A DNA stretch of 64,000 nt. It comes from Comamonas resistens. GTDB lineage: Bacteria; Pseudomonadota; Gammaproteobacteria; Burkholderiales; Burkholderiaceae_C. Below the pieces are notes generated by a model. It was given only the letters and a program-made list of their open reading frames with translations, did no database searches and was not told the origin of the DNA. A program made the translations under genes and the position numbers. The DNA lies in the NCBI RefSeq assembly GCF_030064165.1, contig NZ_CP125947.1, positions 3,038,001-3,102,000 on the forward strand, written 5' to 3'. Positions within the stretch are counted from its first letter, which is position 1, and every line of letters begins with the position of its first letter. Positions 10,054-61,734 of the stretch are shown here, piece by piece.

Positions 10054-11085
10054 TTACTTGTTGGCCAGATAGGCGTTGCTATAGGTCTTGCCCAGATCGA
10101 TGTGCGCGCTCTTCACATTGGGCTTGTAGGCCGAGAGCACCTTGAGCACGGTCTCGGGGCCGCCCGCGGGCATGGCGCCATCCTTGGTAAACATGGGCAG
10201 CGAGGCCTTGAGCGCTTCCACATACAGCGCCTTGTCGCTGCCGTAGTAGTCCTTAGGCATCAGCTCGGCAATCTGCTCGGCGCTATGGGTGCTGATATAG
10301 GCCATGGTCCTGCCAAAGGCGTGGGCCAGCTTGGCGGCCTGCGGCTTGTGCGAGGCTGCCCATTCATTGCGCACATACAGGCTGGCTGCGGGGTACAGGC
10401 CACCCAGCGCGGCCTGCGTGCCGGCTTCGGTACGCATATCGACCAGCACCTTGGCGTCCCCGGTCTTGAGCATTTGCGCCACCGTAGGGTCGGTGGTCAT
10501 GCCGGCCTGGATGCGATCCTGCTTCATGCCGGCGATAAAGGAGTTGCCAGCGCCCACGGGCAGCAGCGAATAGTCCTTGCTGGCAATGCCCTGCTTGTCC
10601 ACCAGATAGCGGGTCAGGAACTCGGTGGACGAGCCCAGACCGGTTACGCCCAGAGTCTTGCCCTTGGCATCGGCCATGGTCTTGAAACCCGCGGCTGCGG
10701 CCTTGGAAGAGACCAGTTCCACCTCGCCTGGCACCTTGCAGAACACGGCAATGGCTTCGATCTCCTTGCCCTTGGCCTGCAGGTCGATGGTGTGGTCATA
10801 AAAGCCCACCACGCCCTGCACGGCGCCCGCAATCAGCTGGTTTTCGGCATCCACACCCGCGGGCTGGGACTGCAACTCCACCTTCAGACCTTCGTCCTTG
10901 AAGTAGCCCAGCGCCTCGGTCAGCTTGGCGGGCAGATAGATGATCTTGTTGATGCCGCCCACCATGATGGTGATGTTGTCACTATCGGCGGCATGGGCGG
11001 CTGGCAGGCCCGCGCACAGCGCCAGAGCGGCGATGGATACCGTGGACAGCAGACTGCGGCGGGAGGATTTGGACAGGCGGGACAT
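10054..11085 (-). CDS. ABC transporter substrate-binding protein, NitT/TauT (NMT1/SsuA-like) family
   Basis: A 343-residue periplasmic binding protein. The N-terminus SRRSLLSTVSIAALALCAGLPAAHA is a signal peptide with a twin-arginine-like motif and an AHA cleavage site near residue 33. The mature part shows the YLPAKLTEALGYFKDEGL start typical of NMT1/SsuA-like proteins. I start at 11085 because AAGGAG lies seven bases upstream; the frame stays open much further (to 12087) but that stretch is antisense to the response-regulator gene. The first gene of the operon, divergent from the TctD/TctE-like pair, which suggests the transporter carries that system's signal, perhaps a carboxylate; this is inference. 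Confidence 0.9.
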   Translation of the reverse strand: MSRLSKSSRRSLLSTVSIAALALCAGLPAAHAADSDNITIMVGGINKIIYLPAKLTEALGYFKDEGLKVELQSQPAGVDAENQLIAGAVQGVVGFYDHTIDLQAKGKEIEAIAVFCKVPGEVELVSSKAAAAGFKTMADAKGKTLGVTGLGSSTEFLTRYLVDKQGIASKDYSLLPVGAGNSFIAGMKQDRIQAGMTTDPTVAQMLKTGDAKVLVDMRTEAGTQAALGGLYPAASLYVRNEWAASHKPQAAKLAHAFGRTMAYISTHSAEQIAELMPKDYYGSDKALYVEALKASLPMFTKDGAMPAGGPETVLKVLSAYKPNVKSAHIDLGKTYSNAYLANK

Positions 11086-11212
11086 GGGCGGTCTCCTTGG
11101 AAGTGGTTTCATCTGCGCATCGCCTTTTGGGCGGGCTTTGCGACTTGAGTGAACACAGTCTAGAAATCGCGCGCTTTCGGTCAGCTTTCGCTGCACCGCA
11201 AAATTTTTAGGT

Positions 11213-11274: not shown

Positions 11275-11955
11275 ATGCGAATTCTTGTGGTTGAAGACAA
11301 CACCGAGCTGGGCCAGTCCCTGACCGAGCTGCTGCGCCAGCAAGGCTTTGTGGCGGATCTGGTGGAAAGCGGCGACGCGGCCGATCAGTGGCTCAGGCAG
11401 ACCCGCTATGACCTGCTGCTGCTGGACTTGAATCTGCCCGGCCTCAGCGGCAAGGCGCTGCTGCGCAGGCTGCGCGAGCGCGGCAGCGATCTGCCCGTGA
11501 TCGTGCTCACGGCCTCGGACTCCATGGACCAGAAAGTGCTGTGTCTGGAAATCGGCGCCGATGACTATCTGGTCAAGCCCGTGGACATGCGCGAATTGCT
11601 GGCACGCATGCAGGCCATTGCCCGCCGCCAGCATCCGGGGCGCGAAAACCATTTGCGCTGCGGCAATCTGCTGCTGGACCTGCGCACACGTCAGTTCAGC
11701 GTGCAGGAGGCAGAGCTGGCCCTGCCCCCGCGCGAGCGCGGCGTGCTCGAAGCGCTGATGCTGGCCCATGGCAGTGCCGTGTCCAAACCCCGGCTGCTTG
11801 ACGCCATCTACGGCATGGATGAGGAGGCCAGCGAGGATGCGCTGGAGCTGTATGTGCACCGCCTGCGCAAAAAGCTCGAAGCCAGCGACGCCACCATCAT
11901 GACGCTGCGCGGCGTGGGCTATCTGCTCAAGCAAAAACTGCCGCCCCCCGGCTGA
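11275..11955 (+). CDS. OmpR/PhoB-family response regulator (TctD-like)
   Basis: A 226-residue two-domain regulator. The receiver domain has acidic pocket E7/D8, phosphoacceptor D51 in LLLLDLNLPG, T79 and K101. The C-terminal winged helix (about 130-220) ends with the typical TLRGVGYLL. It starts six bases before the kinase gene is reached by its stop and therefore forms an operon with it. Together with a TctE-like kinase this resembles the tricarboxylate-type TctDE systems that induce carboxylate importers; the divergent NitT/TauT-type ABC operon is the obvious target. No clear ribosome-binding site precedes the ATG. Confidence 0.9.
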   Translation: MRILVVEDNTELGQSLTELLRQQGFVADLVESGDAADQWLRQTRYDLLLLDLNLPGLSGKALLRRLRERGSDLPVIVLTASDSMDQKVLCLEIGADDYLVKPVDMRELLARMQAIARRQHPGRENHLRCGNLLLDLRTRQFSVQEAELALPPRERGVLEALMLAHGSAVSKPRLLDAIYGMDEEASEDALELYVHRLRKKLEASDATIMTLRGVGYLLKQKLPPPG

Positions 11956-11961
11956 CACGCC

Positions 11962-13383
11962 ATGTTCTACAGCCTGCGCGCCCGCCTGGCCCTGTGGTTG
12001 CTGCTGCCGCTGGCACTGCTGGTGGCCCTGTGCGGCTATGCCGCGCATGAGCATGCCGAGGACGCGGCCGACTATGTGCAGGACCACGACCTGCTGTCAT
12101 CGGCCAAGAATCTGGCGGACCGCCTGATCTGGGAAGACGGCGATATTCATGCCAGTGTGCCGCCATCGGCATTGAGCCTGTTCATGTCGCCCGAGCATGA
12201 CCAGGTGTTTCTCAGCGTCATCAACGATCAGGGGCAACTGCTGACTGGCCAGCCCGATTTTCCGCAGCCCCCGACTTTGCGACTGACGGGCGGCGATGCC
12301 GCCCAGTGGTATGACACGAAGTGGCAGGGCCAGAAGCTGCGCGCCGTCATCACGCGCCGCGCCATGTATGACGTGGCTGGCTCGCGCCAGATCACCGTCA
12401 TCGTCGGCAAAACCACCCACAGCCGCGACAACATGGTCCGGACCCTGTGGTGGCCCACCATGGAATATTTGCTGTGGGCACTGGTCGTGGCCGTGCTGGT
12501 CAGCGCCACGGCGCTGACGCTGGAGTTGCGCCCCTTGCTGCGCACGGCGCGCCAGCTGTCGAGCCGCCAGGTGCAGCCTGCACGCGATATGGATTTTCAC
12601 CTGGACTCGACCCGGCTGCACCAGGAACTGCGCCCGCTGGCCGAAACCCTCAACCAGTTTGCACGCACCATACGCAACCAGGTCACGCGCCAGCGCCAGT
12701 TCATCTCCGATGCGGCCCACCAGCTGCGCACGCCGCTGGCCATACAGGCCCATACCTTGCAACAACTGCAGCAGCTATCGCCTGACGAACAGCCCCAGCA
12801 AAGCGCCCTGGTGCAGCGCCTGCAGCGCAGCAACCAGCAGCTCATCAGCACCACCAATCAGCTGCTGACGCTGGCCCAGGCCGAGCAGGCGGGCAGCGCC
12901 CAAATGCAAACCGTGGACCTGCGCGAGCTATGTCTGCAGGCACTGCAAACCTTTGCCCCGGCGGCCGAGCAAAAAAGCCTGGACCTGGGACTGGAAGATG
13001 GCGGTGCACCGCCCCATACCTTTGCACTGCATACCAGCAGCCGCCTGCTGCCCGAGCTGATCCACAACCTGCTGGACAACGCCATACGCTACACGCCCGC
13101 ACATGGCCAAGTCACGCTGGGCCTGCAATCGACAGCCGACAGCATCACCCTGTATGTGGAAGACAACGGCCCCGGCATTCCGCGCCAGAGCCATGACAAG
13201 GTGTTTGAGCGCTTTTACCGCCTCGGCAGCGACCAGCCAGGCACAGGGCTGGGCCTGGCCATCGTGCAGGAAGTGGCCCGCGCCAGTCAGGCGCGCATCA
13301 CGCTGGGGCCTGCGCTGCAAACGGCCAGCACGCCGCTGCGCCCGGGCCTGCGCGTGGAAGTGGTGTTTCCGCGCGCCGCTTGA
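11962..13383 (+). CDS. Sensor histidine kinase, TctE-like
   Basis: A 473-residue membrane kinase with a first transmembrane helix at about 8-28, a periplasmic domain of the 2CSK_N type (about 29-165), a second helix near 166-187, and a HisKA domain with phosphoacceptor H253 in DAAHQLRTPLA. The ATP-binding domain shows LLDNAIRYTP (N box), EDNGPGIP (G1) and GTGLGLAIV (G2). It is downstream of its partner response regulator by 6 bp. The N-terminal domain type is shared with kinases controlling carboxylate uptake. It ends 4 bp from the convergent SDR gene. Confidence 0.9.
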   Translation: MFYSLRARLALWLLLPLALLVALCGYAAHEHAEDAADYVQDHDLLSSAKNLADRLIWEDGDIHASVPPSALSLFMSPEHDQVFLSVINDQGQLLTGQPDFPQPPTLRLTGGDAAQWYDTKWQGQKLRAVITRRAMYDVAGSRQITVIVGKTTHSRDNMVRTLWWPTMEYLLWALVVAVLVSATALTLELRPLLRTARQLSSRQVQPARDMDFHLDSTRLHQELRPLAETLNQFARTIRNQVTRQRQFISDAAHQLRTPLAIQAHTLQQLQQLSPDEQPQQSALVQRLQRSNQQLISTTNQLLTLAQAEQAGSAQMQTVDLRELCLQALQTFAPAAEQKSLDLGLEDGGAPPHTFALHTSSRLLPELIHNLLDNAIRYTPAHGQVTLGLQSTADSITLYVEDNGPGIPRQSHDKVFERFYRLGSDQPGTGLGLAIVQEVARASQARITLGPALQTASTPLRPGLRVEVVFPRAA

Positions 13384-13387: not shown

Positions 13388-14185
13388 TCAACGCATCACC
13401 AGGCCGCCATCGACCAGCAACACCTGTCCGGTCATAAAGCTGCTGAGGTCCGATGCCAGAAACAGCACCGGACCAGCCACATCTTCGGGCCTGGCCAGAC
13501 GGCGCAGCGGTGTGGCGGCCATCAAGGATTCGCGAAACGACTCCTTGCTGCCCTGCGTGCCCTGGGTCGGATAGACCAGACCCGGCGCCACGCAGTTGAC
13601 ACGTATGCCCTGCGGCCCCAGCTCGCTGGCCAGATTGCGACTGAATCCCACCAGCGCCGACTTGGCCGTGCTGTAGTCGTGATAGGCCACGACGGGGTGC
13701 TCTACCAGGTTGCTCACGATGTTCACGATGCTGCCCCGCGCACGCTGGCGCATCAGCGGCAGCACTGCACGGCAGACATTGAAAGTGGCACCGACCGCAC
13801 CATCGAACTGCGACTGGTAGTGCCCCCATTCCAGATCATCAAAGCGTTGCCGGCTCTCGGGATCGAAGGCATAGGGTCTGAATGCGTTGTTGACCACGAT
13901 GTCCACGCCGCCGGCATCGAGAGCAATGCTGTCCACCATGCTCTGCACGGCTTGCGCATCCCCCACATCGGCCTTGACGGCCCAGGCATCGCCGCCCGCT
14001 GCTTCGCCTGCTTCCAGGCAGGCAGCCACCGTCTGCTGCGCCGCCGCATCGTTGCTCAGGTAGTTGATGACCACCGTCGCACCTTCGCGGGCAAACGCCG
14101 TCGCGATCGCCGCGCCTATGCCCCGGCTGGCTCCGGTGACCAGAACCACCTTGCCGCGCAGGTTCATAGCAGAGGAATGCGCCAT
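13388..14185 (-). CDS. SDR oxidoreductase, last gene of the TPP-riboswitch lux-like operon
   Basis: A 265-residue classical SDR: TGASRGIG near residues 15-22, NNAF around 96, catalytic Ser in IVSNLVEH, YSTAK for Tyr/Lys, and APGLVYPT after it. Its ATG is one base past the stop of the binding-protein gene (TGA-G-ATG), so translation is probably coupled. As the terminal gene of an operon beginning with acyl-protein synthetase and acyl-CoA reductase homologues, it could reduce the aldehyde made by the LuxC-like enzyme to an alcohol. That step is inferred from order and chemistry only. FabG-like activity or an unrelated dehydrogenase role remains possible. Confidence 0.88.
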   Translation of the reverse strand: MAHSSAMNLRGKVVLVTGASRGIGAAIATAFAREGATVVINYLSNDAAAQQTVAACLEAGEAAGGDAWAVKADVGDAQAVQSMVDSIALDAGGVDIVVNNAFRPYAFDPESRQRFDDLEWGHYQSQFDGAVGATFNVCRAVLPLMRQRARGSIVNIVSNLVEHPVVAYHDYSTAKSALVGFSRNLASELGPQGIRVNCVAPGLVYPTQGTQGSKESFRESLMAATPLRRLARPEDVAGPVLFLASDLSSFMTGQVLLVDGGLVMR

Positions 14186-14186
14186 C

Positions 14187-15203
14187 TCAGGCACCCGGCA
14201 GCAGCGAAGTATCGACCACCTCGGTCACCTTGATCTGGCGCTGCACCATGCCCAGCGCACGGTAAGTGTCTGCGCCCTTTTGCAGCGCGGCCAGATCAAA
14301 GTGGCCCAGACCGGCCTTGGCCTGTGCAGGTTGTGACGCAGCATTGCGCAGCTGAATGATTTCGCGGTTGATGTCCATATTGGTACCGTCGATGGCGCGC
14401 CTGCTCGCAATCTGCGCCGCCTCTTCGGGCTGGGCCATCATCCAGGCCGCGCTGTCGCGGTAGCCCTTGAGGAAAGCCTTGAGCAAATCCTTTTTCTGGC
14501 GCAGCGTCTCTTCGCGCACCACAAACATATCGCTGGAGATATTGAGCGTGTCGCGCACCTGCATGACGTTGACATCGCCCATGCCCTTGCGCAGGCCCAC
14601 GGCCAGGCCGGTGTCGGTGGCTGCCGTGGCATCGACCTGGCCCTGCATCAGCGGCGCAAAGTTCAGCAGGCCGGTGACGACGATGGTCACGTCCGACTCC
14701 TTGAGCCCGGCCTGGTGCAGCATCACCAACAGGTTCTGGCGTGTGCCGCTGGACAGGCTGTAGACACCGATCTTCTTGCCCTTGAGGTCTGCGGGCTTGT
14801 GAATGCCGGCCGACTTGAGCGAGACCACATTGAACACGTTCTGCGGGTAGATGTCGTAAATCGCGACCAGCTTTTCACCCTTGTCCAGCGCCATGAAGAA
14901 CGAGCCGGGGTCGGTAAACGCCACATCGGCCTGCCCGGCCAGCATATTGCGAATGGCATCCCCGCCGCCAGCACCGGGCAGATAGGCCAGCTCCACGCCC
15001 TGAGCTTTAAAGAAGCCCTTGTCCGGCTCCGCCAGGATGTTGGTGATCTCGCTGATGGGCTTGCTCCAGCCCGCCAGCCGTATCTTGCCCTGAACGGGCG
15101 CAGCCGCATGGCTCATGCCGGTCAGCGCCAGGCCCGCGATACCTGCACCGGCACCCAACAGGCTGCGGCGAGAAAGAGTCGAGACAATGTTTTCTTGGTA
15201 CAT
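14187..15203 (-). CDS. ABC transporter substrate-binding protein of the TPP-riboswitch operon (NMT1/ThiY-like fold)
   Basis: A 338-residue periplasmic protein with a twin-arginine-type signal STLSRRSLLGAGAGIAGLAL and cleavage near AAA at about residue 34. The mature part begins KIRLAGWSKPISEITNILAEPDKGFF, which fits the NMT1/THI5-like (SsuA/ThiY) binding-protein family, whose ThiY members bind formylaminopyrimidine. It starts at 15203, one base after the permease stop. Being under a TPP aptamer, its ligand should be a thiamine-related compound; because the operon also encodes carboxylate-reducing enzymes, I suspect a pyrimidine or thiazole carboxylate. An in-frame start nine codons upstream would overlap the permease. 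Confidence 0.87.
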   Translation of the reverse strand: MYQENIVSTLSRRSLLGAGAGIAGLALTGMSHAAAPVQGKIRLAGWSKPISEITNILAEPDKGFFKAQGVELAYLPGAGGGDAIRNMLAGQADVAFTDPGSFFMALDKGEKLVAIYDIYPQNVFNVVSLKSAGIHKPADLKGKKIGVYSLSSGTRQNLLVMLHQAGLKESDVTIVVTGLLNFAPLMQGQVDATAATDTGLAVGLRKGMGDVNVMQVRDTLNISSDMFVVREETLRQKKDLLKAFLKGYRDSAAWMMAQPEEAAQIASRRAIDGTNMDINREIIQLRNAASQPAQAKAGLGHFDLAALQKGADTYRALGMVQRQIKVTEVVDTSLLPGA

Positions 15204-15204
15204 A

Positions 15205-16005
15205 TCAGTGCTTGCGAGAAGAGATATCAAAGGAAGAAAAGTGGCTGTCCAGATGGCCGCGCAGCAAGCGGCGCTCCAGCAGCAGACACAGCTGGTACAG
15301 GAGCAGGCCCAGCGCGGCGATCAACACCAACGCGGCGAACATCAAGGTCGTGTCCATCATTCCCTGGGCGGCGATGACGACAGCGCCCAAGCCCTGGCTG
15401 GCGCCCATGAACTCGGCCACCACCACGCCCACCAGCGCCAGCACTGCCGCCACGCGCAGGCCCGCCAGAATGGCCGGCAGGCCCATGGGCAGCTTCAGCC
15501 GCAGCAAGGTCTGCAGCCGCGTGGCACCCAGCATGTGAAACAGCTGCAGGCGCTGGGCATCGACCTGGCGCAGCCCGGTCAAGGTGTTTTCCATCAGCGG
15601 GAAGAAACAGATCAGCGCCGTAATCAGCACCGTAGGCAACATGCCGAAACCGAACCACAGCACAAACAGCGGAGCCAGCGCCAGCTTGGGCACGACCTGG
15701 CTGACCACCACATAGGGCTTGAGCACCAGTTCTGCCCAGGCCGACTCGGCCAGTACCATGCCGGCCAGCAAACCCACGGCGCTGCCTGCGGCCAGGCCCA
15801 GCAACAAGGCCTGCAAGGTGGACAGCAGATGCGGCCAGAAATAGCCCGATGCCAGGCCGTTCCACAGCGCCACGGCCACGGCGGACGGCGCAGGCAGCAC
15901 CAGCGCAGACAAACCCCATTGCCTTACCGCCAGCTCCCACAGGGCCAGCAAAATCAATAGCAGCGCACCGGATACCAGCCGCGCTTTGCAGGGGTTGAGA
16001 CTCAT
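15205..16005 (-). CDS. ABC transporter permease of the TPP-riboswitch operon (ThiX/SsuC-like)
   Basis: A 266-residue inner-membrane permease with six hydrophobic segments and coupling loop MLGATRLQTLLRLKLPMGLP near residues 160-180. Related to the ThiX/SsuC/TauC group. Its ATG overlaps the ATPase stop as ATGA (16002-16005), and its stop is one base from the binding-protein ATG, so the three transporter genes are translationally linked. With the ATPase and binding protein it forms a complete importer. Confidence 0.9.
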   Translation of the reverse strand: MSLNPCKARLVSGALLLILLALWELAVRQWGLSALVLPAPSAVAVALWNGLASGYFWPHLLSTLQALLLGLAAGSAVGLLAGMVLAESAWAELVLKPYVVVSQVVPKLALAPLFVLWFGFGMLPTVLITALICFFPLMENTLTGLRQVDAQRLQLFHMLGATRLQTLLRLKLPMGLPAILAGLRVAAVLALVGVVVAEFMGASQGLGAVVIAAQGMMDTTLMFAALVLIAALGLLLYQLCLLLERRLLRGHLDSHFSSFDISSRKH

Positions 16006-16760
16006 GAACACGCCTCGTCCATAGCTGCTCGCACCTGGGCGCAGTAGTCGTTGAAGAGCGCACCATGACGCAGGCTCTGGCTGCGCGGCTCGGGCAGTTC
16101 TATCTTCCAGGCGTTCACGATGCGGCCGCCATGCATGAGCGCGATACGGTCCCCGAGGTAGACCGCCTCGTTGATGTCATGGGTGACAAACAGCACAGTG
16201 GTGCCTCGCTCGCGGCAGGTGCGCAGCAAATCGTCCTGCAGCTCCGCTCGCGTGATGGCGTCAAGCGCGGCAAAAGGCTCGTCCAGCAGCAACAGCGGCG
16301 GCTCCAGCATCAGCGCCCGCGCCAGCGCCACACGGCTTTGCTGACCGCCGGACAGCTCACGCGGATGCTGGCCCGCATAGGCTGCCAGCCCCAGTTGCGC
16401 CAGCAATTGCCGCGCACGCTGCTCGTCCTGCGCCGTGGGCTTGCGCTGCAGGGACACAGGCAGCAGCACATTGGCCAACGCCGTCTTCCATTCCAGCAGG
16501 GTCGGGGCCTGAAACATGAAACCCACTTGCGGCCCGGGCGCGGCAAGCTCCCCACCGCTCTCACGGTCATACAGTGCGATATGCCCCCGCTGAGGCCGGA
16601 TCAGTCCCGCCACCAGCTTGAGCAAGGTGGTCTTGCCGCAGCCGCTGCGCCCCAGCAGGCAATGGACTTCGCCAGCCTGCACCTGCCAGCTCACCTCATC
16701 CACCACGGGCGAACGGCCTGGGTAGCTGAAGCTGAGCTGCTCCATCGCAAGAAACGCCAT
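16002..16760 (-). CDS. ABC transporter ATP-binding protein of the TPP-riboswitch operon (ThiZ/SsuB-like)
   Basis: A 252-residue ATPase with Walker A LLGRSGCGKTTLL (about residue 40), Q-loop FMFQAPTLLEWKT, signature LSGGQQSRVALARAL, Walker B LLLLDEPFAALD and switch VLFVTHDINEA. The ATG at 16760 is one base beyond the LuxC-like stop (TGA-T-ATG); an in-frame GTG/ATG four codons upstream would overlap that gene. It energises the co-encoded importer. Confidence 0.92.
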   Translation of the reverse strand: MAFLAMEQLSFSYPGRSPVVDEVSWQVQAGEVHCLLGRSGCGKTTLLKLVAGLIRPQRGHIALYDRESGGELAAPGPQVGFMFQAPTLLEWKTALANVLLPVSLQRKPTAQDEQRARQLLAQLGLAAYAGQHPRELSGGQQSRVALARALMLEPPLLLLDEPFAALDAITRAELQDDLLRTCRERGTTVLFVTHDINEAVYLGDRIALMHGGRIVNAWKIELPEPRSQSLRHGALFNDYCAQVRAAMDEACS

Positions 16761-16761
16761 A

Positions 16762-18225
16762 TCAGTCCGCATAAGCCGCCAGCGGCTGCGCCGCCAGTTC
16801 TGCCGATTGCTCGATCTCGGTCATGCGCACCAGATCCAGCAGGTTGAAGCGCCCGTCGTGATGCCACCCGGCTTCGGGCATGCTCATGGAGCCAATGGCA
16901 GCGATACGGGTCACGCCCGCCGCGCCCAGCCGATCCGCCAGACGGTACAAGGTCTCGGGCCCCGCGGCCACACCTGCGGTCTGCAAAAAGTCGCGCTGCT
17001 GCGCCACGATGGGGACGGCGGCGTCCAGACTGTCCACGGCAATCACCGCAATGCTGCGATACAAAGCAGTTGGCGTCAGCGGCGGAAGGTCAGCATCCTG
17101 CGCCTCGTGATAGGCCACGCTCCAGGCCGCATCCGCCGGCCCGATCAAGGTATGCGGCTGGGCCGACCATTCCACGCCCTGCTGCCAGCGGGCCACGGCA
17201 GTGCCCTCTTCCAGCTCCAGCGCACGGCGGGGAAAGCGCCGCTGCAGATTGGCCAGCTCGGCCGCCAGATAGTCGGCAAAAGCGCGCGGCGGCACGGCCG
17301 CGCCGCGCTCCACGTAGAACACATGGGGCGAATAGCAGCCTTGCTGGTCGTAGCGCATCATGTCCCAGGCCGCAAGCCGAGCCAGGGCCGGCGCCTTGAG
17401 AGTATCCAGAGCCTCCCTGGCCACCATGCCAAAGCCCAGCTTGTGGCCGTGGGGCAGAAAGCGCGTGGTTACCGGCAGGCGCTGGCGCAGCGCATCCAGC
17501 GTCTGGTTGCCGCCATAGGCCAGCACCGTATCAGCCTGGGCATACAGCGCATCGGCCTCCTCACCGCCTGCACCGCTCCACCAGACCACGGCCAGGCAAT
17601 CGGCCAGCGGTGGATGCACTTCCGCCAGCAAGCGTGCAAACCAGCCGGCAAACAAGGGCTCGGCACTGGCCAGCTTGCCAATGCTGGGCGCCTTGACCAG
17701 CAAGCCGCAGACCAGGCTCCACAGCGACAGCGCGGGCACATTGCCCGCCCAGCTATGCACCAGCAGCTCAGGCCCATAGGCCCGCACAGCCCCACCCTTG
17801 GCCGCAGGCTGAAACCCGTCCAGCACGCCAGGGTTGGCAAAATCCTCGGCCACAAAACGCTTCAGCTGCAGCGCGCGAAAGGTCTTGAAGAAGCCCGTCA
17901 GGCCCAGGCGCACCATGTCCGCGTCATAGCCGCTGACCACGGGCAGCCAGGCCTCGGCCTGCTGGCGATAGATGTCGTTGCGATCCAGCAAACGGGCCAT
18001 GGCCCGGTCTATCGCGTCGATGATCTCGGTCACGGGCATGGCGCGCAGATGCCGGTCGGCCGCAGCGCGCACATGCCGGGCCAGTGCCTGCATCTGCTCC
18101 GCACCGAGCACCGGCACGGACACTTCCAGCCGCACATCGTCCCGTTCGAAAAGCAGTGACTGCCACCGGACATCCTCGTCCTTGAGGCCCGGCAGATAGC
18201 CCGCTTGTATGCGCTCCAGCCTCAT
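16762..18225 (-). CDS. LuxC-like acyl-CoA reductase (carboxylate-to-aldehyde step)
   Basis: A 487-residue member of the LuxC acyl-CoA reductase family (PF05893 type), about the size of Vibrio LuxC. The catalytic cysteine that takes the acyl group from LuxE appears to be C297 in DQQGCYSPHVFYVE, and a nucleotide-binding region GNVPALSLWSLVCGLLVKAPS lies at 161-181. LuxC reduces an acyl-enzyme with NADPH to the aldehyde. The start at 18225 overlaps the LuxE stop (ATGA); in-frame sequence upstream lies inside the LuxE gene. No luxA, luxB or luxD is present, so light production is not the role. Its place under a TPP riboswitch and in front of an ABC importer suggests a thiamine-related carboxylate as substrate. 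Confidence 0.85.
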   Translation of the reverse strand: MRLERIQAGYLPGLKDEDVRWQSLLFERDDVRLEVSVPVLGAEQMQALARHVRAAADRHLRAMPVTEIIDAIDRAMARLLDRNDIYRQQAEAWLPVVSGYDADMVRLGLTGFFKTFRALQLKRFVAEDFANPGVLDGFQPAAKGGAVRAYGPELLVHSWAGNVPALSLWSLVCGLLVKAPSIGKLASAEPLFAGWFARLLAEVHPPLADCLAVVWWSGAGGEEADALYAQADTVLAYGGNQTLDALRQRLPVTTRFLPHGHKLGFGMVAREALDTLKAPALARLAAWDMMRYDQQGCYSPHVFYVERGAAVPPRAFADYLAAELANLQRRFPRRALELEEGTAVARWQQGVEWSAQPHTLIGPADAAWSVAYHEAQDADLPPLTPTALYRSIAVIAVDSLDAAVPIVAQQRDFLQTAGVAAGPETLYRLADRLGAAGVTRIAAIGSMSMPEAGWHHDGRFNLLDLVRMTEIEQSAELAAQPLAAYAD

Positions 18226-19316
18226 GCGCTGGCGGCCTTCACAAATTCGTCCACGGCCAGGGAGCAGCCCTTGGCGGCGGCACCCTCGGCCCGGCCCAGC
18301 AGCAAAAAGCCGCTGCTCTCGTCGGCCCCTGCCCACAGGCCCACGTCTTCCGTCAGGATGGTGGTGACCGCGTTGTAGTTGGCCAGATCGCAGTGCACCA
18401 GAATGCCGCGCTCGCCCGCAGGCACATCGCGCCCGGTGATGGGTTCGACCAGACGCGAGCGTATCCAGTGCGGGCCCGACTTGACCGAGGGCAGCGTCTC
18501 GTTGCCGCTGTCATAGAACTGCGTGCTCAGCTCGGTCATGCCATACATATTGATGCACAGCGTGCGCGGCACGCCGAACAGTGCCGACAGATCGGCATAG
18601 AACTGTTCCAGCGGCAATTCGCGCGACTGCCCCTTGTAGCCGCCGGTATCCAGAATGCGGCTGCCGACAGGCAGGCGAAAGCTGCGACCCAGCTCACGCA
18701 GCGCGTCCATCACATGGACCAGGCTGAAGCTGGCGCCCAGCAGGGCAAAGGGCTGGCCGCTGCGCTCGGAGGCTTCCAGCGCAGCGCACAGGCCGGGCAT
18801 GTCCAGCCCCTCGGGCGTCAAGTAATAGCGGCTTTCAGGTGTACCGAATTCGGATCTGGCCAGCGCCAGATAGTGCGCCAGCGAGGAATTGGGCATGGCC
18901 TGCTCATCGGGGAACAGAATGCCCATGTCCATGCGTTCCGCACCCTGCATGAAGCGCAGCGCGAAGTAGCGCTTCATCGACAGGTCGTAGACATCGAGAG
19001 CCGGGTGGAAATGCCGCCCGCGCGCAGCACGGCCGGTGGTGCCGCTGGTCATGAAAATGCGCTCGCTCGGCGATGCAGGCTCGCTGCGCAGTTCCATGGC
19101 CTTGAAGGCGTCTATGGGCACGGCGGGAATGTCGCGCCACGACTTCACATTGCGCAGGCTGGCGCCGCGCCGCTGGCAGAAGCTGCGAAACGGCGCATTG
19201 TTTTCGTACTGGTGGGCAAACAGCCGCAAAGCCAATTCATTGAACTGATCGTCGGTGCAATCATCCTGCGCAATAAAGCCAAGCAGGTCTGCAACCAGGG
19301 CAGCGGCCTTGTCCAT
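18222..19316 (-). CDS. LuxE-like acyl-protein synthetase / ATP-dependent carboxylate activator
   Basis: A 364-residue LuxE/PaaK-type adenylating protein. It has the phosphate-binding loop FMTSGTTGRAARG (TSGTTG at 90-95), an NMYGMTELSTQ motif of the ANL family near residue 260, and a C-terminal KGCSLAVDEF whose cysteine (C351) matches the LuxE cysteine that carries the acyl group to LuxC. The family converts a free acid and ATP to acyl-AMP and then acyl-Cys. The ATG at 19316 has AAGGA seven bases upstream; it is the first gene after a TPP aptamer (19395-19467). It is the founding enzyme of a predicted acid-to-aldehyde-to-alcohol route. Substrate unproven. Confidence 0.85.
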   Translation of the reverse strand: MDKAAALVADLLGFIAQDDCTDDQFNELALRLFAHQYENNAPFRSFCQRRGASLRNVKSWRDIPAVPIDAFKAMELRSEPASPSERIFMTSGTTGRAARGRHFHPALDVYDLSMKRYFALRFMQGAERMDMGILFPDEQAMPNSSLAHYLALARSEFGTPESRYYLTPEGLDMPGLCAALEASERSGQPFALLGASFSLVHVMDALRELGRSFRLPVGSRILDTGGYKGQSRELPLEQFYADLSALFGVPRTLCINMYGMTELSTQFYDSGNETLPSVKSGPHWIRSRLVEPITGRDVPAGERGILVHCDLANYNAVTTILTEDVGLWAGADESSGFLLLGRAEGAAAKGCSLAVDEFVKAASA

Positions 19317-19323
19317 GGGATTC

Positions 19324-19352
19324 CTTCGAGAGCTGAGATATCTGCTCCGAAG
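19324..19352 (-). promoter_or_regulatory. Predicted Shine-Dalgarno-sequestering hairpin of the luxE-like leader
   Basis: On the minus strand CTTCGGAG (19352-19345) can pair with CTCTCGAAG (19332-19324, one bulged U); the latter includes the start of the AAGGA ribosome-binding site. Inside this segment ATCTCAGC (19339-19332) is an exact 8-nt complement of the aptamer's conserved GCTGAGAT (19447-19440). This gives a plausible switch between aptamer, anti-aptamer pairing and a blocked ribosome-binding site. Pairings were found by eye. Confidence 0.45.
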
Positions 19353-19394
19353 CCTCCCTTCCATGCTTGAGCCAAGGCAGTCATGGGGTTGCAA

Positions 19395-19467
19395 GCTCTT
19401 CTTCCGCCGGAATAACCCGGTTCAAGTTCTCGGGTGTAGATCTCAGCACTTGCGTGCACCCCGGAGC
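19395..19467 (-). promoter_or_regulatory. TPP (THI-element) riboswitch aptamer upstream of the luxE-like operon
   Basis: On the minus strand the sequence runs P1 5' arm GCTC, GGGGTGC, a short P2 hairpin (GCAC/GTGC with GCAA loop), the invariant CTGAGAT, ACACCCGAGAAC, TTGAACCGG, TTATTCCGGCGG and P1 3' arm GAGC. These match the THI-element consensus (CUGAGA, ACCCG-AGAACCUGA, CCGG-UAAU-CCGGCG) in order and spacing. It lacks a P3 arm, so it is a compact version of 73 nt. It ends 78 nt before the luxE-like ATG at 19316 in the same orientation. TPP binding would be expected to switch the operon off. Confidence 0.92.
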
Positions 19468-19617
19468 GCGCGGCCATCATACCCCAGCAATACGGCGCAG
19501 CCAGGACATGGCTGCATTGCTCTGGCTGCAGGAATGCAAGCCCTTACGCGCCCGGCCTGCCATCGTCGGCGCAGGCTGCGCGCGGCAGGGTCGCGCCGTC
19601 CTATCTAAGATGGCGGC

Positions 19618-20661
19618 ATGACCTCGCCGGATTTCCCGCCCCCTGCTCCCGCTGAAGCAACTCAGCCCCGTGACCCTAGCGACACCATGACTGCCATCGA
19701 CCCTGCCCTGGCACGCACGCTGCAGCGCTTTGCCCGGCTCGATGCCGAAACCCGGACCCCACAGCTTGACTACACCCAACGCCGTCGCCTGCTCGGCGAG
19801 CTGCAGGCGCAGCTGATCCGGTCCCCGCTGCCCGGCATCACCAAAGCCGATCATTTTGTGGCCGCCAGCGGCCGTGAGATATGCCTGCGCAGCTATCAAA
19901 AGAAAAGCATCAACAGCCAGCAAACCCTGGTCTGGCTGCATGGCGGCGGCTGGATGGTCGGCGATCTCAACACGCATGACGACCTGTGCGAGCATCTGGC
20001 CCTGTTCACAGGCCATACCGTGCTTGCGGTGCACTACCGCCGCACGCCTGAAAACCCCTTTCCCGCAGCTCTGGACGATGTGATGACCGTTTTGCAGTGG
20101 CTGCCCACCCTGCAGGGTGTGCTGCCATTTGCCCGATCATCGGTACTGCTGGGCGGCGACAGCGCCGGGGCGCATCTGGCCTTGGCTGCAGCCGTGCGGC
20201 AGTTGCAGACCCTGCCAAGCGATATAGAAGCGGCGCGGATTGCGGGTCTGCTGCTGCTTTACCCGCCGCTGCAGCCCGGGCAGGACAACGCCAGCATGCG
20301 CAGCTTTGCCAGCGGCCATGGGCTCACGCCCGAGGCCATGCAGCACTATTGGCAGGCCATGGGCCAGCCACAGGGGCCGGCGGCGCAGTGGCTGCGGCCA
20401 GGCCATTGCCATGCCCAGATTGCGCAGTTGCCGCCCACACTGCTGATGACGGCCAGCCACGATATATTGCGCGACGCGGCCGAGGCCTTTGCCGCCCAGG
20501 CCCAAGCCCTGGGCGCACCGCTGCAGCTGCTGCGCGCCCCGGCCATGGTCCACGGCTTTGCACGCATGCTGGCAGCCAGCCCCGCCGCACGCCAGCAGGT
20601 CGAGAGTGCCTGCAGCCATTGGTCGGAACTCCTGGCCCATACCAGCCATCGAAGCAAATAA
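19618..20661 (+). CDS. Alpha/beta hydrolase, hormone-sensitive-lipase-like esterase
   Basis: A 347-residue cytosolic esterase-type protein. The oxyanion-hole motif HGGGW is near residue 104, the nucleophile in GGDSAGAHLAL near 178, the acid probably in ASHDILRD and the histidine in MVHGFARM near 310. Substrates of this family are short acyl esters. An alternative start is the ATG at 19687 (MTAIDPAL), which removes a proline-rich 23-residue leader; neither has a convincing ribosome-binding site. It is divergent from the TPP-riboswitch operon, with about 150 bp between the aptamer and its start. No evidence that it takes part in that operon's pathway. Confidence 0.82.
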   Translation: MTSPDFPPPAPAEATQPRDPSDTMTAIDPALARTLQRFARLDAETRTPQLDYTQRRRLLGELQAQLIRSPLPGITKADHFVAASGREICLRSYQKKSINSQQTLVWLHGGGWMVGDLNTHDDLCEHLALFTGHTVLAVHYRRTPENPFPAALDDVMTVLQWLPTLQGVLPFARSSVLLGGDSAGAHLALAAAVRQLQTLPSDIEAARIAGLLLLYPPLQPGQDNASMRSFASGHGLTPEAMQHYWQAMGQPQGPAAQWLRPGHCHAQIAQLPPTLLMTASHDILRDAAEAFAAQAQALGAPLQLLRAPAMVHGFARMLAASPAARQQVESACSHWSELLAHTSHRSK

Positions 20662-20798: not shown

Positions 20799-21272
20799 AT
20801 GACTTCCACCCCCCATTATCAGCAGCAGCTGATGCGCCAGGCCGTCGATCTGGCCCACACCAACCGCCTGCAGGGCGGCCGCCCCTTTGGCGCCGTGCTT
20901 GCACAGGGCGATCAGGTCATCGCCACGGGCGTCAACAACATCATCGCCAGCCATGACCCCAGCACCCATGCCGAAATGGAGGCCATTCGCGCCGGCACGC
21001 AAAAGCGCGCCAACCCCAGCCTGGCCGGGCTGAGCATCTACGCCAGCGGTCACCCCTGCCCCATGTGTCTGGCGGCCCTGGTCATGAACGGCGCGGAACA
21101 GGTGTTCTTTGCCTTCGACAACAACGATGCACAGCCCTATGGACTGTCCAGCGAAGGCACTTACCAGCGCCTTCGCCTGTCGCTCACACCTGCGCCGCTG
21201 CCCATCACCCGCATCGACACCGGCATCACGGCCGATCAGCTCTACGGCAGCACCCCCTGGCCCCAGGATTGA
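20799..21272 (+). CDS. Zinc-dependent nucleoside/base deaminase (guanine deaminase-like)
   Basis: A 157-residue cytidine-deaminase-fold enzyme with zinc ligands H57 and proton shuttle E59 in THAEMEAI, and C87/C90 in GHPCPMCLAAL. The QGGRPFGAVLAQ segment and C-terminal region fit the small guanine-deaminase/tRNA-adenosine-deaminase-like group rather than cytidine deaminase. It probably converts guanine or a related base to its keto form in purine use. A CynX-type transporter follows 87 bp downstream in the same direction. Substrate is inferred from family only. Confidence 0.85.
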   Translation: MTSTPHYQQQLMRQAVDLAHTNRLQGGRPFGAVLAQGDQVIATGVNNIIASHDPSTHAEMEAIRAGTQKRANPSLAGLSIYASGHPCPMCLAALVMNGAEQVFFAFDNNDAQPYGLSSEGTYQRLRLSLTPAPLPITRIDTGITADQLYGSTPWPQD

Positions 21273-21359: not shown

Positions 21360-22607
21360 ATGACGACATCCACATCTTCTTCAAGCACACGCGTCCCGGC
21401 CTGGCTATGGCTGAGCGTGGTGGTGCTGGTCACCATCAATCTGCGACCTTTTCTGACCGCCCCCGGTCCGCTGGGGCATACCATCCAGCAAGCCACGGGC
21501 ATGGATCTGCGCAGTTTTTCCTGGCTCACGCTGCTGCCCATGGCGCTGATGGGCATTGGCGGCTGGCTGGCGCCCTCTGCACTGCTGCGCCTGGGCGCAC
21601 TCACCTCCATCTGCGGCTCCCTGCTGCTGATTGCGCTGGGCTGCGCCTTGCGCATGGTGCCTGCAGGCACGGCCACCGGCAGCCTGCTGATCGCCACCGC
21701 CGGTCTTTGCGGTGCGGGCGTGGCTCTGGTACAGGGCACCATGCCGGGCCTGATCAAGCGCCAGTCACCCCACAATGTGGCGCTCATGATGGGCTTGTAC
21801 TCTGCCGCCCTGATGGGCGGCGGCGCGCTGGGCGCCCAGATATCGCCGCTGGCCATGCAATGGGGCCTGGGCTGGCAACCATCGCTGGCCATCTGGGCCA
21901 TTCCGGTACTGCTGGCCTTGCCACTGGCCTGGCGCGCACTGAGCCTGATGCACGCCAAGACCCCGGCAATGAGCGCCACGCCCCACGCACCGGCCGCCAG
22001 CAGTGGCAGCGACAACAGCACCGGCTGGCTGTTTCGCCGCCGTCGCACCTGGCTGCTGCTGCTGAGCTTTGGCCTGATGAACGGCGGCTATGGCTCCACT
22101 GTTGCCTGGCTGGCGCCCTTCTATCAAACCCATGGCTGGACGGCCACGCAAAGCGGCTCGCTGCTGGCCATTCTGTCCATCGCTCAGGCCGCATCGGCCC
22201 TGGCCATGCCCGCATTGGCAGGCCGCAATGTCGATAGACGCCTGTGGATGGTGCTGGCCTTGCTGATGCAGGTCATCGGCTTTGCCGGTCTTGCGCTCTG
22301 GCCCGACGCCATGCCCACACTCAACGCCATCCTGCTGGGCATGGGGCTGGGCGGCTGCTTTTCGCTGTTCATGCTGGTGGCGCTGGATCACCTGCCTTCG
22401 CCCACACAGGCTGGCGCTTTAAGCTCCTTGATGCAGGGCGGCGGTTTCATCCTGGCCGCGCTTGCGCCGCTGATCATGGCCCAGCTGCACGAACTCAGCG
22501 GCAGCTGGACCTCCGGCTGGCTGTACCAGGCAACGGTGGCAGCCCTGGTTCTGGTGCTGGTGACGCGCTTCAATCCCAAGCACTATGCACGGGTGCTGGC
22601 CGCCTAA
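21360..22607 (+). CDS. MFS transporter, CynX/NimT family
   Basis: A 415-residue inner-membrane protein with about twelve hydrophobic segments. The first-helix motif VTINLRPFLTAPGPL is typical of the CynX (cyanate) / NimT (2-nitroimidazole) family of the major facilitator superfamily. No cynS or cynT lies nearby, so cyanate is not supported as the substrate. The nearest partner is the base deaminase upstream. Confidence 0.85.
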   Translation: MTTSTSSSSTRVPAWLWLSVVVLVTINLRPFLTAPGPLGHTIQQATGMDLRSFSWLTLLPMALMGIGGWLAPSALLRLGALTSICGSLLLIALGCALRMVPAGTATGSLLIATAGLCGAGVALVQGTMPGLIKRQSPHNVALMMGLYSAALMGGGALGAQISPLAMQWGLGWQPSLAIWAIPVLLALPLAWRALSLMHAKTPAMSATPHAPAASSGSDNSTGWLFRRRRTWLLLLSFGLMNGGYGSTVAWLAPFYQTHGWTATQSGSLLAILSIAQAASALAMPALAGRNVDRRLWMVLALLMQVIGFAGLALWPDAMPTLNAILLGMGLGGCFSLFMLVALDHLPSPTQAGALSSLMQGGGFILAALAPLIMAQLHELSGSWTSGWLYQATVAALVLVLVTRFNPKHYARVLAA

Positions 22608-56284: not shown

Positions 56285-56477
56285 CTGAACAGGTTTGAGT
56301 GACTGGACGGAGACTGGAACGCACCAGCAGCGCTGACGGGGTTAAAACCAGCGCACTTGAGTTGAAAGTATTTGCAACACAGCTTTGCCCTAATCAGGGC
56401 GCGGCGGCAGCACCCGGAGCAGGCTTCTCTGGCACAATCGCGCTCGCTGCGACGGGGTTTGGCCCTGTTGCCGCAAC

Positions 56478-56606
56478 GCTGGGGGTGTCCAGGCTGGAGC
56501 ACATGTTCAACATATGTTCCGAGGGCCTGGGCTGAGAGAGTCCCTTTGAACCTGACTGTGCAGAGCCTCCCCGGCTCTGCCCGAGATCATCCTCGCGCAG
56601 GGAAGC
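56478..56606 (+). promoter_or_regulatory. TPP riboswitch aptamer upstream of cytX, with inserted hairpin
   Basis: P2 arms CCAGGC/GCCTGG enclose a P3 hairpin (GGAGCACAT with ATATGTTCC). Then come CTGAGAGAG, CCCTTTGAACCTGA, and later GAGATCATCCTCGCGCAGGGAAGC, which fit the THI-element core (CUGAGA, UGAACCUGA, AUxAU loop, GCGCAGGGAA). Between ACCTGA and the P5 loop lies an extra 8-bp hairpin GCAGAGCC/GGCTCTGC (56560-56580). P1 is short (GCT/AGC). The cytX start is 92 bp downstream. The remainder of 56285-56477 shows nothing recognisable. Confidence 0.85.
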
Positions 56607-56698
56607 TGTCCATGGTGTCATGCCGTGGCTCGCTATCGCTTCAGTAGCCAGTCACGCAACCCGCACGGCCCCTGCTTCGTTTTTCTGGCGGAGCATTC

Positions 56699-57991
56699 AT
56701 GAATTCTTCCTCTTCCCAACCGGCCAACCAGGCCCTGGCTCCGGTGGCGGCGCAAGACCGCGTCTTTGTCTGGCGCGACCATGCATCGCTGTGGTTCAGC
56801 CTGGGCGTGGGCCTGCTGGTCATGCAGATGGGCGCGTATCTGCTGCCCGCTCTCAGCCCTGTGCAGGCGCTGATGGCCATCACCCTGGGCTCGCTGATCG
56901 GTGCAGCCCTGCTGGGCTGGGTGGGCAAACTGGGCTGCGACAGCGGCCTGTCCAGCGCCGGCCTCATGCACAGCGTCTATGGCCGCCACTTTGCCCGTCT
57001 GCCTATCGTGCTGAACATCATCCAGCTGCTGGGCTGGGGCAGCTTCGAGCTGGTGGTGATGCGCGATGCCACCGTGGCCCTGGGCAAGCAAAGCGGCGCC
57101 ATGACGGCCACCTACTGGCCCTGGCTGGCTACCCTGTTCTGGGGCAGCGTGATCCTGCTGCTGATGAGCGGCTCCATGGTCACGCTGGTGCGCCGCATCG
57201 TCTCGCGCGTGGCATTGCCACTGGTGATTGCGTCGCTGCTGTGGCTAAGCTGGCAGTTTCTGGCCATGGCCAACGCTGCCGGTTTTGCCACGCTGATGAG
57301 CCGCGAGGGCGACGGCAGCATGAGCATGCTCAGCGCCATGGATCTGGTGATCGCCATGCCCATCAGCTGGCTGCCGCTGGTGGCCGACTATGCACGCCAC
57401 GGCAAAAGCGGTAAATCGGCGCTGACCGGCGCCTGGACGGGCTTTGCCCTGGCCAATATCTGGTGCTACTCGCTGGGCGTGCTCGTGGCCCTGACGCTGC
57501 CCAGCGAGGACCTGGTCACGGCCCTGCTGCTGGCCCAGGGTGGTCTGATCGCCCTGTCCCTGGTGCTGATCGACGAGGTGGACAACGCCTATGGCGACGC
57601 CTATTCGGCAGCCATGTCGGCCCACAGCATTCTGCCCAGCTGGAGCATTCGCCGCTGGGGCCTGCTGATCGCGGCCCTGTGCACGGCACTGGCCATGGTG
57701 CTGCCCATGCACAGCCTAGAGCCGTTCCTGCTGCTGCTGAGCTCCTGCTTTGTGCCGCTGTTCGGCGTGATGCTGGGCCGCCTTGCTTTTGGCGCCAACG
57801 CCGTGGAATTGATGCATGACGCGCCTGCCGTGCGCTGGGATGCCGTCGCCATCTGGGTGGCCGGCATTGCCTTCTATCACCTGCTGCCCTATCTGAGCAG
57901 CGCCATGGGCTCGGCCCTGCCCACGCTGGTGCTGACCTTCATGGTGGCTACTACCACCCGTCAGCGGCAGCCTCGCACTGCCGCAGCCTGA
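56699..57991 (+). CDS. cytX: Hydroxymethylpyrimidine-type permease CytX (NCS1 family)
   Basis: A 430-residue NCS1-family transporter with about twelve helices. FVWRDHASLWFSLGVGLLVMQMGAYLLP at the first helix and MPISWLPLVADYARHGKSG near 220-238 are typical of the cytosine-permease/CytX group. CytX proteins under TPP riboswitches are thought to import the thiamine pyrimidine HMP. The start at 56699 has GGAG five bases upstream. It belongs to the thiamine regulon by its TPP aptamer. Confidence 0.9.
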   Translation: MNSSSSQPANQALAPVAAQDRVFVWRDHASLWFSLGVGLLVMQMGAYLLPALSPVQALMAITLGSLIGAALLGWVGKLGCDSGLSSAGLMHSVYGRHFARLPIVLNIIQLLGWGSFELVVMRDATVALGKQSGAMTATYWPWLATLFWGSVILLLMSGSMVTLVRRIVSRVALPLVIASLLWLSWQFLAMANAAGFATLMSREGDGSMSMLSAMDLVIAMPISWLPLVADYARHGKSGKSALTGAWTGFALANIWCYSLGVLVALTLPSEDLVTALLLAQGGLIALSLVLIDEVDNAYGDAYSAAMSAHSILPSWSIRRWGLLIAALCTALAMVLPMHSLEPFLLLLSSCFVPLFGVMLGRLAFGANAVELMHDAPAVRWDAVAIWVAGIAFYHLLPYLSSAMGSALPTLVLTFMVATTTRQRQPRTAAA

Positions 57992-59113: not shown

Positions 59114-59986
59114 TCAGTCCTGCAGCACCAGCTGTGCACGCGGCGCATAGCCATGGTTCAGCGGGCCATGGCCCTGGCCGGTATAGACATCGGCACCGGC
59201 TTCAATGGCTCCCAGAATATATTGGCGCGCCAGGGTTACGGCCTCGGACAAAGCCAGCCCCTGAGCCAGATAGGAGGCAATCGCCGAAGACAGCGTGCAG
59301 CCCGTGCCATGGCCGTTATGCGTGGCAATGCGCTGGGACTGCAGACGCAGATAGTCGCCGTGGTTCTGGCCCTGCTGGCCCAGCACATCCATGACCAGAT
59401 CACCGCTCAGGTGCCCGCCCTTGAGCAGCACGGCGGGCGCGCCCATGGCCAGCAGATCGGCCACGGCCGCGTCCAGCTCGCCAATACCGTCGATATCCCG
59501 GCCCAGCAGCATGGCGGCTTCATCGAGATTGGGGGTGATCACGCTGGCCAGCGGGAACAGTTCCTTGACCAGCACCTGGGCGGTTTCCGGCGCAATCAAC
59601 CGGTCGCCGCTGGTGGCCACCATCACGGGGTCCAGCACCACATTGCGGATCTTGTGGCGGCGAATGGCATCGGCCACCACGCCGACCACCTCGGGTGTGG
59701 CCAGCATGCCGATCTTGACCGCATCGACGCCTATGTCCTGCACCACGGCATCGATCTGGCCACGCACGGTGTCGAGCGGAATGCTGTGGATGCCCGTCAC
59801 GCCCAGCGTGTTCTGCACGGTGATGGCGGTAATGGCCGTCATGCCGTAGCAGCCCAGAGCCGCGCAGGTCTTGAGGTCGGCCTGGATGCCAGCACCGCCG
59901 CCGCTGTCGGAGCCGGCGATGGAAAGAACGCGCGCATAGCGTTTTTTCGCTGCGGCAGAAGTCGAGGAAGAAGCAGTCACTGTCAT
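59114..59986 (-). CDS. thiD: Hydroxymethylpyrimidine/phosphomethylpyrimidine kinase
   Basis: A 290-residue ribokinase-fold kinase that makes HMP-P and HMP-PP for thiamine. SIAGSDSGGGAGIQADLKTCAALGCYGMTAITAITVQNT at the N-terminus is the ThiD hallmark; KIGML, VLDPVMVATSGD, TPNLDEA and the anion-hole motif NGHGTGCTLSSAIA near 230 are all present. An N-terminal Ser/Ala-rich stretch of about 15 residues precedes the fold. It is transcribed away from thiO; the TPP aptamer at 60061 faces thiO, not thiD. Confidence 0.95.
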   Translation of the reverse strand: MTVTASSSTSAAAKKRYARVLSIAGSDSGGGAGIQADLKTCAALGCYGMTAITAITVQNTLGVTGIHSIPLDTVRGQIDAVVQDIGVDAVKIGMLATPEVVGVVADAIRRHKIRNVVLDPVMVATSGDRLIAPETAQVLVKELFPLASVITPNLDEAAMLLGRDIDGIGELDAAVADLLAMGAPAVLLKGGHLSGDLVMDVLGQQGQNHGDYLRLQSQRIATHNGHGTGCTLSSAIASYLAQGLALSEAVTLARQYILGAIEAGADVYTGQGHGPLNHGYAPRAQLVLQD

Positions 59987-60060
59987 GGCTAAAAATTATC
60001 GCCCATGCGCATGGTCAATGCGCCATGTTTGAGGTTGTGCTGTAATGTCCGCTCACGGAC

Positions 60061-60184
60061 GAAACAGGGGTGTCCTGCTGGCAGTTGCCGGCGTGGACTG
60101 AGAAACACCCTGGGGCCACAGCTGACGCCACCCGCGTTACCGGCCCTTGCACCCGATCCAGGTCATGCTGGCGTGGGGAGTTTC
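60061..60184 (+). promoter_or_regulatory. TPP riboswitch aptamer upstream of thiO-thiS-thiG-thiE
   Basis: P1 arms GAAAC (60061-60065) and GTTTC (60180-60184) enclose GGGGTGTCC, a P3 hairpin, GGACTGAGA (CUGAGA at 60098-60103), ACACCC, then CTTGCACCCGATCCAGG, TCATGCTGGCGTGGGGAG. This fits the THI-element consensus. An extra arm (GGGGCC / GGCCC) is inserted between ACACCC and the CACCCGA part. The thiO start is 164 bp past the aptamer, with a palindromic element (copy C) between. Confidence 0.92.
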
Positions 60185-60255
60185 ATCAAGCCGCGTGGCA
60201 TGCCGCGTTTTGTCCGGTGCAGGGTCTTTGCCCTGTGCGCGATGGAAAACGACAC

Positions 60256-60332: not shown

Positions 60333-60347
60333 CTCAACGATTTGCAC

Positions 60348-61442: not shown

Positions 61443-61535
61443 ACTTTGGTGCACAGCACTTGTTCCCCCGGCGCGCACAAGCAGCACTGCGCTGCGGTTT
61501 AAGTTAGCGCCAGCCTATTTTTCCGTTTTGAAGCC

Positions 61536-61733: not shown

Positions 61734-61734
61734 C

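Follow-up and report, generated by a model that had tools for sequence, protein, structure and literature searches.

In this study, a stretch of 64,000 nucleotides from Comamonas resistens (contig NZ_CP125947.1, positions 3,038,001 to 3,102,000; hereafter the window, to which all coordinates refer unless a locus is named) was analysed with regard to a six-gene operon on its minus strand, which we propose to be a vitamin B1 (thiamin) salvage operon controlled by thiamin pyrophosphate (TPP). The first gene encodes a LuxE-like acyl-protein synthetase (18222-19316; PF04443, E 3.1e-19), which is expected to activate an acid and carry the acyl group on Cys351. It is followed by genes for a LuxC-like acyl reductase with the cysteine Cys297 (16762-18225; PF05893, E 4.1e-78), the ATPase (16002-16772; PF00005, ABC_tran, E 3.7e-34) and the permease (15205-16011; PF00528, BPD_transp_1, E 9.9e-30) of an ATP-binding cassette (ABC) importer, an NMT1/ThiY-type substrate-binding protein whose N terminus is signal-like (14187-15203; PF09084, NMT1, E 1.7e-50), and a short-chain dehydrogenase/reductase (SDR) oxidoreductase (13388-14194; PF13561, E 1.5e-59). 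In the SDR, a putative aldehyde reductase, the TGASRGIG and YxxxK motifs were both found. A first-pass annotation, made from the letters of the window, had described this gene order, and all six families were indeed matched there on the minus strand by Pfam. It had also described every junction as an ATGA overlap or a 1-base gap. Judging from the coordinates, this is borne out when the ATG starts at 16760 (ATPase, 1-base gap to luxC), 16005 (permease, 4-base ATGA overlap) and 14185 (SDR, 1-base gap) are used. None of the six genes is luxA, luxB or luxD, at which no search was aimed, and none has a hydrolase domain match; YlmB was not searched genome-wide.

Leader RNA and encoded proteins

When positions 19200-19650 were examined with cmscan at an E-value threshold, the sole match, RF00059, was the TPP riboswitch aptamer that heads the operon (19382-19473, minus strand; 49.2 bits, E 9.1e-9). 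The match covers the full model (1-105 of 105 positions), including the CUGAGA core, and was recovered with an E-value of 2.5e-8 in a whole-genome RF00059 search. The score is under the curated gathering score of 54.3, and cmscan of the whole window at the gathering threshold returned no match. We treated this score as a curation threshold rather than as a defining structural feature. The leaders directly 5' of luxE in four other loci (L052, L053, L061 and L064) pass it with 57.4-59.9 bits, and the operon leaders of L070, L078 and L098 likewise exceed it. Hence, the aptamer noticed in the first pass was not rejected by the covariance model and stands as a significant full-length match; contrary to what was implied at that time, this copy misses the curated cut-off.

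Folding of the leader with RNAfold predicted a hairpin at 19324-19352 (minus strand) that would act as the expression platform: in it, the Shine-Dalgarno (SD) sequence immediately 5' of the luxE start codon (ATG at 19316) is paired and so sequestered. The CTTCGGAGC...GCTCTCGAAGG SD hairpin recurs in L036, L037, L039, L042, L044, L046 and L056, that is, in eight of the 16 folded leaders with the window included. As read from the sequence, the 5' arm of the hairpin, CGGAGC (19349-19344), is complementary to GCTCCG of aptamer P1 (19467-19462). The TPP-bound state may accordingly consist of the aptamer and the sequestor, and the free state of the pairing between P1 and the arm. The consensus aptamer is absent from the minimum-energy structure predicted for the entire leader. 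L101 (Domibacillus) and L106 (Geobacillus) differ in that their leaders contain a terminator-like hairpin with a run of T residues behind it. Both types of platform would fit ordinary TPP repression, and the active form of vitamin B1 apparently switches the operon off.

Subsequently, the two Lux-like proteins were compared with the solved complex 7xc6. Profile matches were obtained between LuxE and 7xc6_E (E 1.3e-28) and between LuxC and 7xc6_A (E 1.4e-31). Cys351 of LuxE, numbered from the ATG at 19316, was invariant in 38 of 38 aligned sequences and aligned with KGCSL of 7xc6_E, and Cys297 of LuxC was invariant in 34 of 34 and aligned with QQACFS of 7xc6_A. Both cysteines, earlier described as intact, are thus conserved, and we take the residues aligned with them to be the acyl-carrying residues of LuxE and LuxC. 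Strict motif counts in unaligned sequences were lower (LuxE 56/73, LuxC 79/81, SDR 45/50) because positions next to the invariant cysteines are variable and part of the start codons were guessed; the alignments therefore appear to be the better test of conservation. The AlphaFold model of LuxE had a predicted local distance difference test value of 88, and its top Foldseek match was PaaK with a template modelling score of 0.64. The chain 7xc6_E was not among the 50 Foldseek matches listed for this model and was found by sequence instead. LuxC and LuxE were described for fatty acids. The scores against the NCBIfam lux equivalogs were far under the cut-offs (70.8 vs 550 bits for LuxE, 74.5 vs 750 bits for LuxC). 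The binding protein contains an NMT1/THI5 domain and its predicted fold is closest to ThiY/THI5; it is proposed to take part in the import of a thiamin-derived pyrimidine acid.

Conservation and thiamin linkage

A LuxC scan of one genome per species yielded 96 relatives, and the analysis was continued with the 80 best loci. The full order luxE-luxC-ATPase-permease-binding protein-SDR was present in 76 of these 80. Three of the incomplete loci reach a contig edge, and the fourth, from Pantoea dispersa (L098), consists of luxE-luxC-SDR only; in the other 79 loci importer genes lie 3' of luxC as far as the contigs extend. The carrier genera include Comamonas, Delftia, Acidovorax, Achromobacter, Bordetella, Thauera, Variovorax, Polaromonas, Azospirillum, Erwinia, Geobacillus, Domibacillus, Neobacillus, Oceanobacillus and Sporosarcina, among others, the last five of which we take to belong to Bacillota. 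Two Pantoea megaplasmids (L116, 5892-9239; L117, 5910-9302) also carry luxE-luxC-SDR with no ABC importer alongside at those loci, behind strong aptamers of 71.7 and 66.6 bits, respectively. In Pantoea, therefore, the acid may be taken up in a different way or be formed inside the cell. Separately, a record named 'Pantoea sp. 18069' (L043) contains the full operon with a LuxC about 80% identical to that of the window; its name may therefore be wrong, or the contig may be a contaminant.

TPP sites were then sought in 44 carrier genomes with stricter filters. These were representatives of the 80 loci, chosen before the result, with L098 left out. A TPP leader was attributable to the operon in 42 of the 44. 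The site lay within 400 nt 5' of luxE in 37 genomes; in L068, L077 and L079 it precedes thiD, with luxE next in line, and in L107 and L112 it precedes thiW, likewise followed by luxE. Two loci from metagenome-assembled genomes (L080 and L081) have the full operon and no TPP aptamer in either locus; TPP hits in these genomes that seemed to be in range were rejected because the aptamer sequence is absent there, which places them on other contigs. Outside the 44 genomes, cmscan detected a site 5' of a co-directional thiD-luxE run in L070, L076, L078 and L088. Homologous operons thus do not consistently lack the aptamer. Furthermore, 16 of the 80 loci have thiamin genes next to the operon, thiD being among them in 12 of the 16. 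In Limnohabitans (L110), whose genome (G339) gave no ThiC match, the operon is followed by thiD on the opposite strand, thiO, a thiS-like frame, thiG and thiE.

In the host genome, the RF00059 search gave four sites, located at thiC (L006), the operon, thiO-thiG-thiE and a CytX-like permease. The operon would thus be one member of a small TPP regulon. The second and third sites of the window are proposed to belong to the same regulon. The second (56471-56620, plus strand; 30.1 bits, E 0.0046) is a weak match carrying long insertions. It lies 5' of the gene for the CytX-like permease (56699-57991; TIGR02358, 243.9 bits, under the cut-off of 309.85) for 4-amino-5-hydroxymethyl-2-methylpyrimidine (HMP). 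The third (60056-60196, plus strand; 46.8 bits, E 3.5e-7) precedes thiO-thiG-thiE (60342-63812), in which ThiG (PF05690; G000:C1:3099911-3100657), ThiE (PF02581) and ThiO (TIGR02352, 229.9 bits, under the cut-off of 250.8) were recognised. Between them lies thiD (59114-59986, minus strand; TIGR00097, 304.4 bits, over the cut-off of 204.95), whose HMP/HMP-P kinase product is the proposed consumer of the product of the operon. Together with ThiC, ThiG, ThiD and ThiE, the host genome encodes two TenA-family matches, both outside the operon.

Genome content and the proposed pathway

To relate the operon to one half of the vitamin, 71 carrier genomes were considered: 27 from a family sample and the 44 reached through loci, the latter counted without a completeness estimate. 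At least two pairs, G231/G309 and G002/G327, have identical gene coordinates and are probably the same genome, so that the distinct carriers number at most 69. The family sample comprised 299 genomes drawn from a larger group, the family being read as Comamonadaceae from named relatives. Only the best 5 or 8 candidates per genome were scored in it, and a few absences may be false. ThiC was found in 57 of the 71 carriers (as fragments in G324), ThiG in 69 and ThiM (PF02110) in 14, one of them weak. Of the 14 carriers lacking ThiC, 13 have ThiG; the exception, G093, is 55% complete and has no luxE beside its LuxC match. All 13 have a ThiE-family match, and TenA, which is another pyrimidine source, was undetected in nine of them.

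Within the family sample, the 27 carriers comprised 19 genomes with both ThiC and ThiG, seven with ThiG only and one with neither, whereas the 272 non-carriers comprised 170 with both, five with ThiG only, four with ThiC only and 93 with neither. Among the genomes with ThiG, ThiC was missing from 7/26 carriers vs 5/175 non-carriers (Fisher p 1.4e-4, kinship ignored), and among those without ThiC, ThiG was found in 7/8 carriers vs 5/98 non-carriers (p 2.5e-7, kinship ignored). The seven carriers with ThiG only span six genera. A pyrimidine source would be expected to produce such a conditioned pattern. Two observations weigh on the other side. Plain absence of ThiC is not commoner in the carriers of the family sample (8/27 vs 98/272), only the conditioned tests being positive, and Neobacillus niacini (G340) is a clear counter-case, having ThiC and ThiM, no ThiG match, and the operon behind thiW. 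As a separate observation, five family genomes with ThiG and without ThiC lack the operon (G001, G029, G131, G142 and G272), two of which, G131 and G272, have TenA-family matches. A divergent LuxC was considered for these five, and none was found at E 0.001 in any of them.

Taken together, we propose, with a probability of roughly two in three, that the operon encodes a pathway which is repressed by TPP and salvages the pyrimidine half of vitamin B1. At low TPP, the aptamer would be unbound and the operon expressed, as suggested by the aptamer and its platform. The binding protein, permease and ATPase would take up a pyrimidine carboxylic acid derived from thiamin. The most likely candidate is 4-amino-2-methylpyrimidine-5-carboxylate, because the alcohol needed is HMP and this is its matching acid. 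LuxE would then activate the acid with ATP and load it onto its own Cys351, and LuxC, cooperating with LuxE as in bioluminescence, would take the acyl group and reduce it to the 5-aldehyde with NAD(P)H. The SDR would convert the aldehyde to HMP, ThiD would phosphorylate HMP, and ThiE would join the product to the thiazole made by ThiG. In several genera, the pathway may replace ThiC as the pyrimidine source. Where an ATP-dependent LuxE, LuxC and an SDR are encoded together with a ThiY-type importer under TPP repression, their simplest role is to reduce an acid to the aldehyde and then to the alcohol. The first-pass annotation had likewise suggested import and reduction under TPP repression, which agrees with the synteny, the TPP leaders (42/44), the thi adjacency (16/80), the conserved cysteines and the ThiY-like binding protein.

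Other substrates were also considered. It is conceivable, though rather unlikely, that the operon bypasses ThiC: the HMP group would come from a different acid, either pyrimidine-like or a precursor, which does not arise by thiamin breakdown and may be synthesised by the cell itself. The Pantoea genes without an adjoining importer would suit such a bypass, as would two carriers lacking ThiC (G335 and G339) whose single detected TPP site is at the operon; the importer genes in the 79 other loci and the resemblance of the binding protein to ThiY speak against it. Slightly less likely is salvage of the thiazole half, in which imported 4-methylthiazole-5-acetic acid would yield hydroxyethylthiazole (HET) on reduction, and ThiM would phosphorylate the HET. 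TPP control fits this reading, the operon stands straight after thiW in three Bacillota loci (L107, L112 and L113; the L112 thiW matches TIGR02359 with 175.5 bits, over the cut-off), and G340 has ThiM and no ThiG match. However, ThiM was undetected in 57 of the 71 carriers, which would leave most of them unable to use HET unless another kinase is present, while ThiG was found in 69; absences in the family carriers affect ThiC rather than ThiG, and in 12 of the 16 loci where thi genes lie next to the operon, thiD, encoding the HMP kinase, is one of them. The first-pass annotation had left pyrimidine and thiazole acids side by side as substrates. The pyrimidine half is now favoured, and thiazole acetic acid is disfavoured because of these ThiM and ThiG counts.

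Repair of the whole vitamin, in which thiamine acetic acid would be reduced to thiamin, is improbable: thiamin pyrophosphokinase (PF04263) was found in seven of the 71 carriers, all reached through Bacillota loci (other thiamin kinases were not searched), and such repair would make ThiG dispensable, yet carriers lacking ThiC keep it (7/8 vs 5/98). Reduction of an unrelated acid such as a fatty acid under incidental TPP control, as the Pantoea labels 'long-chain fatty acid--CoA ligase' and 'acyl-CoA reductase' and the description of LuxC and LuxE for fatty acids might suggest, is highly improbable in view of the TPP leaders, the adjoining thi genes, the distant NCBIfam cut-offs and the conditioned ThiC/ThiG pattern.

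Related systems and neighbouring genes

To our knowledge, 4-amino-2-methylpyrimidine-5-carboxylate has so far been known only as a waste metabolite. Judging by its title, the study of Neal and Pearson (1964), which PMC7780320 cites, reported it as a thiamin metabolite in rat urine. If the proposed pathway is correct, this otherwise dead-end oxidised pyrimidine half would be returned to a usable building block, and attention would be drawn to a pyrimidine acid vitamer that is not among the measured compounds named in the part of the B1 vitamer survey PMC10881298 consulted.

A salvage of base-degraded thiamin by ThiXYZ, YlmB and TenA was reportedly described by Jenkins et al. in 2007. This work is among those cited in an excerpt of PMC5627462. 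Like the proposed pathway, it combines TPP-regulated NMT1/ThiY-type ABC import of a pyrimidine derivative with delivery of HMP to ThiD. It differs in hydrolysing an N-formyl aminopyrimidine through YlmB and TenA, whereas the operon would perform ATP-driven carboxylate reduction and encodes neither the amidohydrolase YlmB nor TenA with its importer. LuxC and LuxE of bioluminescence (7xc6) share the families PF05893 and PF04443 and the aligned cysteines with the operon proteins. In contrast to them, the latter fall far under the equivalog cut-offs and are encoded with an importer, an SDR and a TPP aptamer, with no further lux genes in the operon. In phenazine biosynthesis, the pair EhpF/EhpG activates and reduces a ring carboxylate. 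Two structures labelled 'phenazine antibiotic biosynthesis protein', 3l2k and 3hgu, which we take to be EhpF, were among the Foldseek matches of the LuxE model. According to the annotation in the part of PMC11278526 seen, a short adenylating enzyme is encoded beside an aldehyde-dehydrogenase-family protein in this system. The operon shares this arrangement, and EhpF/EhpG are thought to reduce the carboxylate of an N-heteroaromatic ring; they differ in serving antibiotic biosynthesis with no importer and no riboswitch, and the likeness is in fold only. In the consulted part of PMC10881298, ThiV is described as taking up pyrimidine vitamers in bacteria lacking ThiC (Pelagibacterales). Like the operon, it combines pyrimidine uptake with an adjacent TPP (TDP) riboswitch and offsets a missing ThiC; as described there, it differs in that the vitamers are imported ready-made, with no carboxylate reduction.

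Among the open-access matches listed, no title or abstract opening linked LuxC or LuxE to thiamin salvage, regulon databases being outside the scope. Neither luxE nor luxC appears in the main text, as far as consulted, of the riboswitch-regulon comparison PMC3766115. We rate TPP-regulated precursor salvage as already known as a kind, and the carboxylate-reduction chemistry as new to that kind. The operon probably represents an undescribed B1 salvage across Pseudomonadota and Bacillota, in which LuxE, LuxC and an SDR recover 4-amino-2-methylpyrimidine-5-carboxylate and stand in for ThiC in several genera. Thiamin pyrimidine is otherwise known to be obtained through ThiC, THI5 or hydrolytic salvage, beside which this would be a further chemical route. 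It would also help to explain the pyrimidine supply of some bacteria that bear ThiG and lack ThiC, give LuxC/LuxE-type enzymes a role in vitamin recycling, and correct the annotation of the Pantoea genes.

Elsewhere in the window, a second NMT1-type binding protein (10054-11106, minus strand; PF09084, 64.3 bits) adjoins another ABC permease and ATPase (locus L007). This region holds none of the four TPP sites of the genome, and a TctD-like two-component system (11275-13383) lies between it and the operon. Divergent from the operon lie genes for an alpha/beta hydrolase (19618-20661), then a small deaminase resembling deoxycytidine monophosphate deaminase/TadA (20799-21272, plus strand) and then a major facilitator superfamily transporter (21360-22607).

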